The notes under the pieces were generated by a model, which did not search any database, had not been told where the DNA came from, and worked only from the letters and a program-made list of their open reading frames with translations. DNA of 64,000 nucleotides. It comes from Pedobacter cryoconitis. GTDB taxonomy: Bacteria; Bacteroidota; Bacteroidia; Sphingobacteriales; Sphingobacteriaceae. Within the stretch, counting starts at the first letter, position 1, and the number at the start of each line of letters is the position of its first letter. Shown in pieces: positions 58,849-63,972 of the stretch. The stretch spans positions 62,001 to 126,000 of the forward strand of contig NZ_JACHCC010000001.1 of NCBI RefSeq assembly GCF_014207135.1, read 5' to 3'. Both the position numbers and the translations under genes were made by a program.

Positions 58849-59895
58849 TTAAGGTTTTAACGATTTTAAAGCGGATAATAGTATGCTGTTTTCGGCTGGG
58901 GTTCCAACGGTAATCCTCAGGCAGCCTTCACATAAAGTTATTTTTGCACGGTTACGGACAATAATACCCTGTTCTACCAGTGCATCATAAGTTCCATTGG
59001 CATCATCTACCTCTGCAAGAATAAAGTTTGCATCCGAAGGATACACCTTTCTGATCATAGGTAGCTCCAGCAGCTGCTTACTCAGCAATTCTCTTTCGGC
59101 TACCGTAATTTTAATCCATTCATTGACCTGTCCGATATTTTGCAGGGCAGCCAGTGCGAGGTCCTGGGTAGACTGACTGATATTGTATGGTGCTTTAACT
59201 TTATTCAGGATGTCAATCGTGATACTGGAAGCAAAGGCCATACCCAGACGTAAACCTGCCAGGCCCCAGGCTTTAGAGAAAGTCTGTAAGACAACTAACT
59301 GGGGATATTCAGTCAATTCCTGGATGAACGTACGTTGTTTAGCGAAATTGATATAAGCCTCGTCAATAATGACCAATCCATTGAAATTAGCCAGAACAGT
59401 TTCTATATCCGTACGGATGATTGAATTTCCTGTCGGGTTATTCGGAGAACAGATAAAGATCAGTTTGGTATTGGCATCAATAGCTTCAGCTATCCCTTCC
59501 AGATCTAACTGAAAGTTGGGTAATAAATTAACTTTACGGATCTCCACATCATTAATATTTGCAGAAACCTCGTACATGCCATAGGTGGGCGGGAGGATGA
59601 TCACGTTGTCTTTTCCAGGGTTACAAAAGGCACGGAACAAAAGATCGATGGCCTCATCACTTCCATTTCCTAAAAATGTATTTTCAATGGGCACACCTTT
59701 AATTTTGCTGATTGCATCTTTCAGATCCAGTTGTAAAGGATCAGGGTAACGGTTAAAATTCTCCGGTAAAGGAGAACCGAAACTATTTTCATTTGCATCT
59801 AAAAATACACTTGCCTGGCCTTTGTATTCATCTCTGGCGGTAGAGTAGGGGCGAAGGTTTTTGATGTTTTCGCGTTGTAGGTTTTTAATATCCAT
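58849..59895 (-). CDS. hisC: histidinol-phosphate aminotransferase
   Basis: A 348-residue PLP-dependent class I/II aminotransferase. Features are [13 protein letters not shown] near the start, [35 protein letters not shown], and the PLP-binding lysine in [14 protein letters not shown]. It makes histidinol phosphate from imidazole acetol phosphate and glutamate. Its first codons overlap the end of hisD by 11 bp. Confidence 0.96.
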
Positions 59896-61183
59896 CTGAT
59901 GATTTTAAACGAATAGTGATTGCATTTTTGTGTGCCTGAAGCCCTTCGGCGGCAGCGAGAATTTCGACAGTAGTGCCAATATTGGCCAGACCCTGAGGAC
60001 TGATATGCTGAAAAGTGATCTTCTTCAGAAAAGAATCCATAGATACGCCCGAATAGGCTTTGGCAAAACCACTAGTCGGTAAGGTGTGGTTAGTACCTGA
60101 AGCATAGTCACCGGCACTTTCCGGGGTCAGATTACCCAGGAAAACAGAACCAGCATTGATAATTTGTTGAATAAGTTCCTGGAAATCAGTTGTAGCCAGG
60201 ATCAGGTGTTCAGGGGCATAACTATTGCTGAATTCCATAGCTTGTTGCTTATTTTCTGTCAGTACAGCATATGAATTGGCAATGGCCTGAGCGGCTATGT
60301 CTTTTCTGGGTAAAGCATTAAGCTGGATCTCAATCTGTCTCTCCACTTCTTCAATAAGCGTGGCCGAAGTGGAAACCAGTATAGCCTGGCTGTCTGTTCC
60401 GTGTTCGGCCTGAGCCAGCAGATCAGAAGCTACAAAAGCAGGGTTAGCAGTTTCGTCTGCAATAACCAGTACTTCTGAGGGACCGGCGGGCATATCAATC
60501 GCTGTCATTCCCGAAGCCAGGACCTGTTGTTTGGCCTGGGTTACATAACGGTTTCCAGGGCCAAAGATCTTATAAACTTTAGGTACACTTTCTGTACCGA
60601 ATGCCATGGCTGCAACAGCTTGTGCGCCACCAACCAGATAGATCTTTTCAATGCCCAAAAGTTGAGCGCAGTAAGCAAGAAAACAGTTTGTTTTCCCATC
60701 TTTCTGAGGAGGGGAGCAGACTACGATTTCCTTACATCCGGCCAGCACTGCGGGGATACCTAGCATTAAAAAAGTACTTGGTAAAACAGCAGTTCCACCA
60801 GGGATATAAAGTCCTACCCGTTCTATTGCCCTCGACTCGCGCCAGCAGGAAACACCCGGCATAGTCTCAACCGGAAGTTCTTTATATAACTGTGCAGCAT
60901 GAAATTTTTTGATGTTCTCGTAAGCAGTATCGATAGCCTTTTTCGCCTCAGCCGGAATGGCCGAAGCAATCTTGCTGATCTCTTCTTTTCCGATGAAAAG
61001 CTGGTCGAGGCTAACCTTGTCAAAAGCTAAAGCGTAATCTCTTAATGCCTGATCACCTGCTACTTTGACCTGTGCAATAATCTCTTTTACACTTTCTGCG
61101 ATGCTGGTATCATCAGCCAGCTGTCTCAAACAGATCTCTTCGATATTCTGTTTAGATAAGTTATTATACCTGTAGAGTTTCAA
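59885..61183 (-). CDS. hisD: histidinol dehydrogenase
   Basis: A 432-residue enzyme for the last two oxidation steps of histidine synthesis. Signature regions are RVGLYIPGGTAVLPSTFLMLGIPA, KIFGPGNRYVTQAKQ, DMPAGPSEVLVIADETA, DLLAQAEHGTDSQA with the zinc-binding His, NSYAPEHLIL with the catalytic Glu-His, and AGDYASGTNHTLPT near the end. It follows hisG by 67 bp. Confidence 0.97.
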   Translation of the reverse strand: MKLYRYNNLSKQNIEEICLRQLADDTSIAESVKEIIAQVKVAGDQALRDYALAFDKVSLDQLFIGKEEISKIASAIPAEAKKAIDTAYENIKKFHAAQLYKELPVETMPGVSCWRESRAIERVGLYIPGGTAVLPSTFLMLGIPAVLAGCKEIVVCSPPQKDGKTNCFLAYCAQLLGIEKIYLVGGAQAVAAMAFGTESVPKVYKIFGPGNRYVTQAKQQVLASGMTAIDMPAGPSEVLVIADETANPAFVASDLLAQAEHGTDSQAILVSTSATLIEEVERQIEIQLNALPRKDIAAQAIANSYAVLTENKQQAMEFSNSYAPEHLILATTDFQELIQQIINAGSVFLGNLTPESAGDYASGTNHTLPTSGFAKAYSGVSMDSFLKKITFQHISPQGLANIGTTVEILAAAEGLQAHKNAITIRLKSSDGY

Positions 61184-61250: not shown

Positions 61251-62102
61251 TTAAGAAATGATTTTTTCTATCGGCATGACTACAATTCCTTCTGCACCAG
61301 CAGCTTTCAGGCTGTTGATCTTTTCCCAGAAATCCTGTTCTGCAATCACAGAGTGAACTGCTACCCAGTCTTCTTCAAAAAGAGGAACTATTGTCGGACT
61401 TTTCACTCCCGGAAGTAAACTCACTACTTTTTCAAGATTTGATTTGGCCACGTTGAGCACTACATATTTTGTCTCTTTGGCACGGAGTACTGAACGGATC
61501 CTTTGCAATAATTCAATCACATCTTCGTTTAGTTCTGTTCCTTTACTGCCGATCAGGACAGCTTCGGATTTCATCACTTCAGCGAAAGGTTTCAGGCCAT
61601 TACTTTTTAAAGTTCCGCCCGTCGAAACGATATCACATATAGCGTCACTCAGCCCCAGACCGGGACCAATTTCTACAGATCCTGAAATCGTACGGACTAC
61701 TGCATTTACTTTATTTTCATCCAGATATTTTTGCAGGATAACAGGGTAAGAAGTCGCGATAGCTTTACCTTCCAGACCACTGATATCAGAGATTTCACTT
61801 TCGTTGGGAATAGCGATTTTGAGGGTGCATTTTCCGAAGCCTAATTTTTGAAGGTAAGTGACATCGGCGTTAACTTCAGTGATTACATTCTCCCCTACAA
61901 TACCCAGGTCGGCAATACCATCCTGCACATATTCAGGGATATCATCATCTCTCAGAAATAAGATTTCCAACGGAAAATTTGTAACTGTTGTGATCAGGGA
62001 GCTTTTATAGTTTTCGAATGATAAACCACAATTTTTAAGAATCTCTACGGATTTTTCGTTTAGCCTTCCAGATTTCTGGATAGCAATTTTAAGTGTTTTC
62101 AA
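61251..62102 (-). CDS. hisG: ATP phosphoribosyltransferase, long form
   Basis: A 283-residue enzyme catalysing the first, feedback-regulated step of histidine synthesis. It has the catalytic domains (LKIAIQKSGRLNEKSVEILKNCG, DIPEYVQDGIADLGIVGENV, GLGLSDAICDIVSTGGTLKSNGL) and a C-terminal ACT-like regulatory domain (GVKSPTIVPLFEEDWVAV), so no HisZ is needed. I start at the TTG at 62102, where the family alignment begins; the ATG at 62147 would add 15 residues that look like a translated leader. A histidine-rich leader ORF lies 72 bp upstream. Confidence 0.92.
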   Translation of the reverse strand: MKTLKIAIQKSGRLNEKSVEILKNCGLSFENYKSSLITTVTNFPLEILFLRDDDIPEYVQDGIADLGIVGENVITEVNADVTYLQKLGFGKCTLKIAIPNESEISDISGLEGKAIATSYPVILQKYLDENKVNAVVRTISGSVEIGPGLGLSDAICDIVSTGGTLKSNGLKPFAEVMKSEAVLIGSKGTELNEDVIELLQRIRSVLRAKETKYVVLNVAKSNLEKVVSLLPGVKSPTIVPLFEEDWVAVHSVIAEQDFWEKINSLKAAGAEGIVVMPIEKIIS

Positions 62103-62173
62103 TTGATTGAAATTATTGAATGAAACAGGAAAATAATTCGGAAACAAGTTTTGAAGTACAAAACATTACATAT

Positions 62174-62230
62174 CTATCGCCACAACTGGCGATGGAAGAA
62201 ATGAAAATGATGTTTCAAAATATTGTTCAT
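62174..62230 (-). CDS. hisL: candidate histidine operon leader peptide
   Basis: An 18-codon ORF on the minus strand encoding MNNILKHHFHFFHRQLWR. Four of the eight residues K-H-H-F-H-F-F-H around its centre are His, all encoded CAT. It lies between a good promoter (62274-62305) and hisG, the position of a his leader. A hairpin covers its last codons. By analogy with enterobacterial hisL, ribosome stalling at the His codons when charged tRNA-His is scarce could raise his operon expression. A downstream terminator hairpin with a T run is not obvious, so the exact mechanism is unclear. Confidence 0.65.
   Translation of the reverse strand: MNNILKHHFHFFHRQLWR
62176..62193 (-). promoter_or_regulatory. 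hairpin at the end of the his leader ORF
   Basis: ATCGCCA and TGGCGAT form a perfect 7-bp GC-rich stem with a 4-nt loop over the last codons of the leader peptide. It could be a pause or anti-termination hairpin. Confidence 0.55.
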
Positions 62231-62273
62231 AATATATGTCTCTATTCAATAATGCGTTGCACACTGAGTTTGA

Positions 62274-62305
62274 CAAATATATAGATAGAATTGACAAAAC
62301 AAAAA
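62274..62305 (-). promoter_or_regulatory. his operon promoter
   Basis: On the minus strand a TTTG (62300-62303) is followed after 18 nt by TATATTTG (62274-62281), the Bacteroidota -33/-7 promoter pattern. The leader ORF starts about 43 nt after the box. Confidence 0.7.
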
Positions 62306-62379
62306 TATATGGCATTTTATTTGATTAGGGTGGTTACAATGCATAGTAACAATCCCGTATTAATTAATTTACGCTCATT

Positions 62380-63972
62380 TTGAAGAAAATAATAACCCTT
62401 GTTTTGCCTATTTGTTTCCTAATATCTTCTTGTAACTGGTTTAAAACCCCACCAGAAGTAGGGATCCTGTTGTCAGAACATTTTAAAAACAAACTTTATA
62501 AAGATTTTGATACTGCTGCCTATCATGTAGTTTTTAACCGTCACCTTGACTCTTTACAGTCGAAACTAAGTAATCCTAAAGTAATTAAAAGCTATTATGC
62601 TGACGATGAGCATAAAAATTCAATGGTTACCCGCTTTTATGTTAATGGTGGATTGGATACCCTGAAAAAATATCTGGAAAACAGTGCTGTACATGGCTAT
62701 AACCCTGAAATATTCGGATATAAAAAGCTGGGTGAATTATTAACAGAGCTGGGAGACAACAAATTTAAGTCTGTCGCTGAGGCTTACCCTGTCCTGGCAG
62801 ATCTGGAGCTTTATACTGCCTCCTCATTGTTGAAGTATGACACTTTTGTGGCTTACGGAAGCATTAATCCGAAAAAGGTACTTAACCGTTACTATATCAC
62901 AACCGCAAGACCTGATAGTAATACCATGAATAAAGTACTGGGTACTAAAGATCTGTCTGGTTTATTAAAGGATATCCAGCCCGCTACAGAAAACTATAAA
63001 GTCCTGCAGCAGACACTGGCAGAACTGCAAAAAGATCCTGTGCGTAATGCAGTAGCGATCCAGACAGTTGAGGTCAATATGGAGAGATCGAGATGGAAAA
63101 TCCCTGGTTTGGAATCTGAATACGTAGAGGTCAATATTCCGGATTTTTCACTGACCTGGTTTAAAGGGCAGGATACAGTAACACATATGAAAGTTTGTGT
63201 GGGTGCCAGACGGGAAAAAACATACGAGGAGAAGATGAAGGTTTATGCTAAGACTCATTCTCTTGACGATAAGCCCAAAAATCACCAGACGCCTATTTTA
63301 TTGAGTAAATTCAATGCGATACAGGTAAACCCGGTCTGGAATATCCCTGTCAGCATTGCCCAGAATGAGATTTACAATCAGGCCAGGAGAGATCCTTATT
63401 ATTTATCAAACAATAACATGAAGGTTTACCACAAAGGACAACTGGTAAATGATCCTGATACTATACAATGGGATAAATATTCGCGTGAACATTTACCTTT
63501 CCAGTTCAAACAAGGTTCTGGAGCGGGAAATGCTTTGGGAAAATTCAAATTTATATTTGAGAACGGAGCCAGTATTTATCTGCATGATACCAATAATAAA
63601 TCGGGATTTAATCTTTCGAGCAGGGCAATCAGCCATGGTTGTGTCAGGGTAGAAAAGCCATTGGAGTTTGCAGAAAAGATGGTGAATAACAAATACGAAT
63701 ATGACCAGCTGAGAATGGAGGTTAATTTACCGCCTGTTGATACCACTAAAATGGACGTCTACAGAAAGAAACTGGCTAAAAAGGCTGATACGCTGAACGT
63801 CTTCCAGTTAAAACCGAAATGGTTTGGAACAAGAAAGAACATTTCTGTGTTTATTAATTATAAGACTGCATGGGCTGAACATGGCAAAGTGCAGTATCGC
63901 AATGATGTTTATGGTCTGGACGATGCTTTGTTTACCGCAATGAAGAAGTACAGGGCAAACGTCAGGAATTAA
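62380..63972 (+). CDS. lipoprotein L,D-transpeptidase (YkuD/YcbB-like)
   Basis: A 530-residue cell-envelope enzyme that forms 3-3 peptidoglycan cross-links or attaches proteins to peptidoglycan. The N-terminus has a lipobox (FLISSC, C18), so it is membrane-anchored. Residues 20-240 are a helical scaffold domain with a peptidoglycan-binding look (LDTLKKYLENSAVHGYNPE); the catalytic domain has the YkuD motif RAISHGCVRVEKP with catalytic C421 and an upstream histidine in SIYLHDTNN. This is the YcbB-type layout. The start is TTG since no ATG precedes the lipobox. Gene complete in the window. Confidence 0.9.
   Translation: MKKIITLVLPICFLISSCNWFKTPPEVGILLSEHFKNKLYKDFDTAAYHVVFNRHLDSLQSKLSNPKVIKSYYADDEHKNSMVTRFYVNGGLDTLKKYLENSAVHGYNPEIFGYKKLGELLTELGDNKFKSVAEAYPVLADLELYTASSLLKYDTFVAYGSINPKKVLNRYYITTARPDSNTMNKVLGTKDLSGLLKDIQPATENYKVLQQTLAELQKDPVRNAVAIQTVEVNMERSRWKIPGLESEYVEVNIPDFSLTWFKGQDTVTHMKVCVGARREKTYEEKMKVYAKTHSLDDKPKNHQTPILLSKFNAIQVNPVWNIPVSIAQNEIYNQARRDPYYLSNNNMKVYHKGQLVNDPDTIQWDKYSREHLPFQFKQGSGAGNALGKFKFIFENGASIYLHDTNNKSGFNLSSRAISHGCVRVEKPLEFAEKMVNNKYEYDQLRMEVNLPPVDTTKMDVYRKKLAKKADTLNVFQLKPKWFGTRKNISVFINYKTAWAEHGKVQYRNDVYGLDDALFTAMKKYRANVRN

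Follow-up and report, generated by a model that had tools for sequence, protein, structure and literature searches.

The enterobacterial his operon is controlled by attenuation through hisL, its leader peptide. In translational attenuators, of which the ermC leader is an example, stalling of a ribosome within a short leader ORF frees the start region of the next gene. In the Bacteroidota, which mostly initiate translation without Shine-Dalgarno pairing, attenuators were reportedly predicted for some members in a 2004 survey by Vitreschak and colleagues. Leaders before hisG have been described in gamma-proteobacteria (PMC4833913). For bacilli, His leader peptides upstream of hisS and of hisZ are mentioned together with the ermC leader (PMC2965389); leader-like ORFs are mentioned for Bacteroides (PMC7366714), and from Actinobacteria come the LEU element and leader peptides that lack obvious terminators (PMC1262725). 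In the LEU element, which precedes leuA, the control codons pair with the Shine-Dalgarno box, and the authors favour a protein (PMC1262725). Bacteroid-trp (RF01692), a predicted cis-regulatory RNA of the Bacteroidetes whose role in trp control is read here from its name, appears in a table of another report (PMC2864571). No description of an element of the kind reported below was found in the accessible portions of the open-access PMC literature on Bacteroidota His leaders and related leaders.

In this study, we analysed a window of 64,000 nucleotides of Pedobacter cryoconitis, in which an initial annotation had proposed a his attenuator before hisG. Like the classical His attenuator (RF00514, His_leader), the locus has a short His-rich leader ORF directly before hisG and alternative RNA structures; it differs in that no terminator or antiterminator was found, hisG has a non-AUG start and a helix, P0, lies beside hisG. 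Like translational attenuators of the ermC type, it is predicted here to free a downstream start when a ribosome stalls in the short leader ORF, whereas its predicted signal is an amino acid sensed through several control codons and its predicted sequestering helix involves the 5' UTR. A scan of the window gave no Rfam family at its cut-off, RF00514 and RF01692 included; seven Sphingobacteriaceae leaders gave no Rfam match up to an E value of 1, and RF01692 was not matched by the trp leader region of this genome at the gathering score. We consider the chances evenly balanced that the locus is a his leader without a recognisable intrinsic terminator which controls the initiation of hisG translation through competing RNA folds.

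Materials and methods

hisG was found in 144 of 145 Pedobacter genomes, and the upstream regions of 90 of these 144 were examined together with 40 regions from other genera of the Sphingobacteriaceae. Five of the 130 leaders (L056, L200, L207, L208 and L217) were not parsed, so that counts refer to 125 leaders, 54 of which make up alignment A1. Loci L171-L191, being repeats of genomes already included, were left out. A separate set of 80 named loci was used to count ORFs within 260 nt of hisG. A sixth His position, used by only part of the Sphingobacteriaceae, was omitted from the count of His retention. Covariation of the long-range helices P0 and P1 was tested with strand swaps among 25 divergent leaders, using gapped duplexes and 5000 swaps. 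The probability of hairpin 2 was obtained from 89 sequences folded with the ribosome footprint blocked. Start codons were compared by one rule applied both to the Sphingobacteriaceae and to relatives with terminators.

Results

The leader ORF and its conservation

The leader ORF, MNNILKHHFHFFHRQLWR, occupies 62174..62230 on the minus strand and consists of 18 codons and a TAG stop, read from the ATG at 62230 to 62174. Its CAT codons, the presumed control codons, are codons 7, 8, 10 and 13 (62192..62212, minus strand). Upstream on the same strand lie a -33 box, TTTG (62300..62303), and, after 18 nt, a -7 box, TATATTTG (62274..62281), which is followed by 43 nt up to the leader ATG; from the Bacteroidota promoter consensus we take the two boxes to be the promoter. 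All 125 leaders keep a -7 box of the form TAnnTTTG in the 75 nt that precede the leader ATG. The 3' end of the ORF is covered by a perfect hairpin, hairpin 1, ATCGCCA-GTTG-TGGCGAT (62176..62193, minus strand). The initial annotation had named all three elements, as an 18-codon minus-strand ORF with four CAT codons within seven, a TTTG-N18-TATATTTG promoter motif about 43 nt before it and a GC hairpin on its 3' end, and the ORF, the motif and the hairpin are each borne out.

Upstream of hisG a His-rich ORF is present in all 90 Pedobacter regions examined, often with the peptide LNHHLHLHHR, and, under a rule of at least three His, in 40 of 40 regions from the other genera of the family, two of which (L208 and L217) have the ORF without clear hairpins as judged by eye. 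Among the 80 named loci, 79 have an ORF with clustered His codons no more than 260 nt before hisG; in the sole exception, L144, the ORF seems to lie farther upstream. At five aligned leader positions His is retained in 110-125 of 125 sequences, with interchange of CAT and CAC. A model combining His codons and hairpins matches this genome once, before hisG, and matches 10 of 156 Bacteroidota genomes, namely six of Sphingobacteriaceae and four of one genus in another family. By these comparisons the histidine-codon leader of the his operon is conserved in the family Sphingobacteriaceae, and the loss of the ORF or its His codons among relatives, which the initial annotation had named as grounds for rejecting its proposal, is not what was found.

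hisG itself occupies 61251..62102 on the minus strand and begins with TTG (at 62102). Its nearest named relatives, at 97 percent in a Pedobacter sp. and 96 percent in P. cryoconitis, place the genome in Pedobacter. Its start is TTG (89) or GTG (33) in all 122 Sphingobacteriaceae leaders lying no more than 150 nt from hisG, and no in-frame ATG occurs in these within the 14 codons searched. Under the same rule an in-frame ATG is found in 25 of 25 terminator-type relatives, in four of which a TTG lies nearer the motif. A hisG start farther upstream was ruled out, the open frame being just 283-284 amino acids long in several relatives. In five far-spaced Sphingobacteriaceae leaders (L193, L195, L200, L207 and L209), roughly 170-390 nt from hisG, the gene starts with ATG; the three of these that could be parsed retain hairpin 2. 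The next gene in the window (59885-61183, minus strand), apparently hisD, is likewise listed with a TTG start.

Local hairpins and long-range helices

The segment 62095-62275 folds better than 198 of 200 shuffled sequences (z -2.96). Beyond the coordinates covered by the initial annotation, at 62112-62164, lie a second hairpin (hairpin 2) and the 3' strands of P0 and P1, two long-range helices. Hairpin 2, GUUUUG-UACUU-CAAAAC, lies at 62148..62164 (all features given here are on the minus strand). P1 pairs region 1 inside the ORF start, GAACAATATTTTGAA (62214..62228), with region 4, TTCAAAACTTGTTTC (62141..62155), which comprises the 3' arm of hairpin 2 and its tail, so that hairpin 2 and region 1 are alternative partners of region 4. 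P0 joins a strand of the 5' UTR, ATTATTGAATAGAGACA (62237..62253), to a strand that ends 9 nt before the hisG start (62112..62127); over 23 leaders the distance from P0 to hisG is 10 nt at the median and ranges from 0 to 24 nt.

Hairpins 1 and 2 together have 97.1 percent of their cells paired over 53 distinct rows, with 58 cells showing double changes against 23 in shuffles, and sliding the partners lowers the pairing to 60.1 percent or less. Taken separately, hairpin 1 has 96.8 percent of cells paired (53 distinct rows) with double changes at two pairs, and hairpin 2 has 97.4 percent with double changes at three pairs. Strand swaps of hairpin 2 between genera gave 9 of 5000, and swaps within genera were not significant (z -0.97; 37 leaders, five genera); the support for hairpin 2 thus comes from changes between genera.

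Both long-range helices covary clearly. For P1 the cognate strands give -9.55 kcal/mol against -6.14 kcal/mol when swapped (z -7.4; 0 of 5000), and for P0 -10.38 against -7.28 kcal/mol (z -6.2; 0 of 5000), while four non-cognate segment pairs in the same test and the same 25 leaders range from z -1.2 to +0.8. The ORF start does not covary with the 5' arm of hairpin 2 (z +0.84, 25 leaders). Swaps kept within genera (37 leaders, five genera) still single out P1 (z -5.1) and P0 (z -4.6; 0 of 5000), and two control pairs treated in this way give z +0.99 and +0.59. A first, cruder test of P0, with ungapped helices in 90 unfiltered Pedobacter sequences, was weak: the value for the cognate strands was 18.67 against 18.00 (s.d. 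0.32) for permuted ones, and the largest of 2000 permutations, 19.12, exceeded it. Since P1 and hairpin 2 share region 4 and both covary, they represent two mutually exclusive folds. The arrangement differs from that of the LEU element in that here the 5' UTR pairs with the stretch before hisG and the ORF start with the 3' arm of hairpin 2; pairing of the LEU type, between the hisG start region and the control codons, was not seen, as no covariation links the stretch before hisG to the segment that runs from the ORF start to the first His codons inclusive (z -1.2, 25 leaders).

Absence of a terminator and contrast with other families

The initial annotation had seen no classic terminator with a T run before hisG, and this proved correct: a scan of 61900-62500 gave no terminator-like site, and such a site occurs in just 3 of 125 Sphingobacteriaceae leaders, under a rule that hairpin 2 has too few G-C pairs to satisfy and that a weak terminator might escape. 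Under the same rule 25 of 31 leaders from other Bacteroidota families have one, a count that includes six ORFs judged spurious by eye (L238, L246, L259, L260, L264 and L267), which were excluded from the swap control of 25 leaders. These 31 are the ones with a His-rich ORF, under the rule used, among 40 regions, the other nine having no such ORF; two of the six leaders that miss the terminator rule (L241 and L265) show a terminator by eye.

The terminator-type leaders of other families (L232-L266) resemble those of the Sphingobacteriaceae in having a His-rich ORF before hisG, the start of which may pair with the stretch after its stop codon (z -2.5). They differ in having a strong terminator, the arms of which covary (z -8.6), an antiterminator-like pairing of the ORF end with the terminator 5' arm (z -7.4) and an ATG-started hisG, and in lacking P0, as their 5' UTR shows no covariation with the stretch before hisG (z +0.53; all in the 25 leaders of the control). 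P0 therefore goes with the loss of the terminator. Their terminators average -15.1 kcal/mol, against -2.8 kcal/mol for hairpin 2. Among 13 such loci scanned for RF00514, only L234 and L266 gave hits, both below the cut-off.

Within the genome of the window, leaders of a classical appearance precede other operons. An attenuator with a Thr/Ile-rich leader, MINNSNLTTSIIITTTGILGGGSIMV, stands before thrA (L277, G000:C9:253500-254800) and one with a WLW leader, MINNKQTWLWRNGSEKSPVAALCTL, before trpE (L278, G000:C13:2300-3400); by eye, each has a GC-rich hairpin and a T run followed by the ATG-started gene, and neither region matches an Rfam family at its cut-off. Terminators can thus be recognised in this genome, and the his leader differs from these two leaders.

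Folding with a blocked ribosome

In the folding calculations the probability of hairpin 2 is 0.26 in the naked RNA, becomes 0.87, 0.85, 0.72 and 0.62 when His codons one to four in turn are occupied by the ribosome, and falls to 0.19 when the ribosome has reached the stop codon. Halted at the first His codons, a ribosome masks the ORF start, which prevents P1 and leaves hairpin 2 to form. The predicted openness of the leader start likewise changes from 0.29 in the naked RNA to 0.61 with a ribosome stalled at the first His codon, a clear difference from which it seems probable that the switch involves ribosomes loading repeatedly on the leader. At hisG itself the predicted unpaired fraction of positions -35 to -5 is 0.45 in the naked RNA, 0.51 with a ribosome at the first His codon and 0.63 with one on the leader start, rising by more than 0.1 in 7 of 23 and 18 of 23 leaders, respectively; positions -15 to +15 hardly change (0.65, then 0.63). 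Even when the ribosome occupies the first His codon, the fold retains P0, its pairs going from 12.2 to 10.1.

Discussion

Sequence comparison establishes the leader ORF, hairpins 1 and 2, helices P0 and P1, the non-AUG start of hisG and the missing terminator. Taken together with the folding calculations, these features are most likely those of a His attenuator acting on the translation of hisG, although we infer its last step, to which folding lends modest support. A ribosome that has passed the ORF would let P1 and P0 zip into a closed rod, which by the predicted fold ties up in helices both the start of the leader and the segment ahead of hisG, and with plentiful histidine this rod would hold down the translation of hisG. 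Under a shortage of charged tRNA-His, the first ribosome would halt at His codons 7-8 and cover region 1, region 4 would form hairpin 2 instead of P1 and the rod could not close; ribosomes on the leader start, or awaiting it, would then hold P0 open, and the weak hisG start would be used. Rho-dependent polarity could spread the effect along the operon. A putative stall site near the start of the leader ORF, a feature of translational attenuators, is present in the sequence as His codons 7 and 8. The weak point of the model is that the predicted effect on the hisG start region is small. It also leaves unaccounted for the five far-spaced leaders with an ATG-started hisG, which indicate that the hairpins can persist without P0 beside hisG.

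The initial annotation had regarded the leader as a functional equivalent of the enterobacterial attenuator. The comparisons support this in part, as to the His-codon leader with its covarying RNA structure, whereas an attenuator of the strict enterobacterial kind is not supported, in that no terminator/antiterminator pair was found; as the second step, covariation favours occlusion of the hisG start region, which had been offered there as an alternative. The element would act like other leaders that sense codons, yet it lacks the terminator by which a classical His attenuator is defined, and it is for this reason classified as a variant.

Several other explanations have to be weighed against control of translation. 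Hairpin 2 and its U-rich tail might act as a weak intrinsic terminator in classical transcription attenuation. The 8 nt that follow hairpin 2 contain at least five T in 96 of 125 leaders and in 11 of 25 representatives, some Pedobacter have seven T there and hairpin 2 covaries between genera; on the other hand, 14 of the 25 representatives fail this rule, most other genera having no T run at this place, and the stem is weak at its average of -2.8 kcal/mol. Moreover, a stall at the first His codon favours hairpin 2, so that a terminator there would have the wrong sign and shut the operon when histidine is short. On account of this weakness and sign hairpin 2 was set aside as a terminator, and we judge the weak-terminator explanation, retained for the U-rich tail, quite unlikely. 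The same two points lead us to see the operon as off when P0 and P1 form the rod and as on when the ribosome is stalled. Termination by Rho is a stronger candidate, though still an unlikely one: with the leader folded or untranslated, Rho would end transcription before or early in hisG unless a stalled ribosome or an alternative fold prevented it. This would suit a leader that has kept its His codons although no intrinsic terminator was found, and short C-rich stretches are seen by eye after hairpin 2 in several other genera, but it explains neither the pairing of P0 beside the hisG start nor the occurrence of hisG without ATG in 122 of 122 leaders.

The remaining explanations dispense with the competing folds or with the sensing of histidine. 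A protein might bind the conserved hairpin 2, whose loop is UACGU or UACUU, or might recognise the inverted P0 strands in the DNA, the His codons merely fine-tuning leader translation. Outside Pedobacter, hairpin 2 indeed has a nearly invariant 5' arm and loop (GUUUC-UACGU), whereas the strands of P0 differ between genera and yet remain complementary, a pattern more in keeping with paired RNA than with a DNA site, and protein binding seems scarcely probable. We consider it very unlikely that the leader is a mere remnant or that, as a plain upstream ORF, it sets the level of hisG translation with no response to histidine; such readings would suit an element whose regulation is so far a prediction, and against them stand the His codons kept through synonymous change and the single match in the genome, before hisG, of the model that joins His codons to a hairpin.

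Of the history of the element we can offer a tentative account, to which we give slightly less than even weight: among the ancestors of the Sphingobacteriaceae, control by the his attenuator may have moved from transcription to translation, the terminator and antiterminator that other Bacteroidota families retain giving way to the P0 helix and an obligatory non-AUG hisG start, with the thr and trp leaders remaining classical. If true, this would be a clean natural case of the codon-sensing leader of one operon changing its output within one phylum, with both versions of the leader and an in-genome control (thr and trp) at hand. It would also bear on how a leader gates a downstream start in bacteria that mostly do without Shine-Dalgarno pairing.

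Some minor observations may be added. Hairpin 2 opens with ATG, TTG or GTG in 110 of the 122 close-spaced leaders, reading MFLRE or MFCTS (here from 62166 downwards on the minus strand). A second ORF beginning there and coupled to hisG was ruled out, as stops near hisG are not commoner in that frame (64, 49 and 59 of 122 leaders in the three frames, and 8, 10 and 2 of 22 representatives); among the close-spaced leaders neither the length nor the stop position of this ORF is conserved. The leader shares its intergenic region with a divergent plus-strand gene (62380-63972), the translation of which contains SHGCVRVE, in our view resembling the L,D-transpeptidase signature. In some genera (L192, L194, L203, L206, L212 and L214) an extra local hairpin is seen by eye in the leader 5' UTR, for example AATTTCT...AGAAATT or CCCAA...TTGGG.
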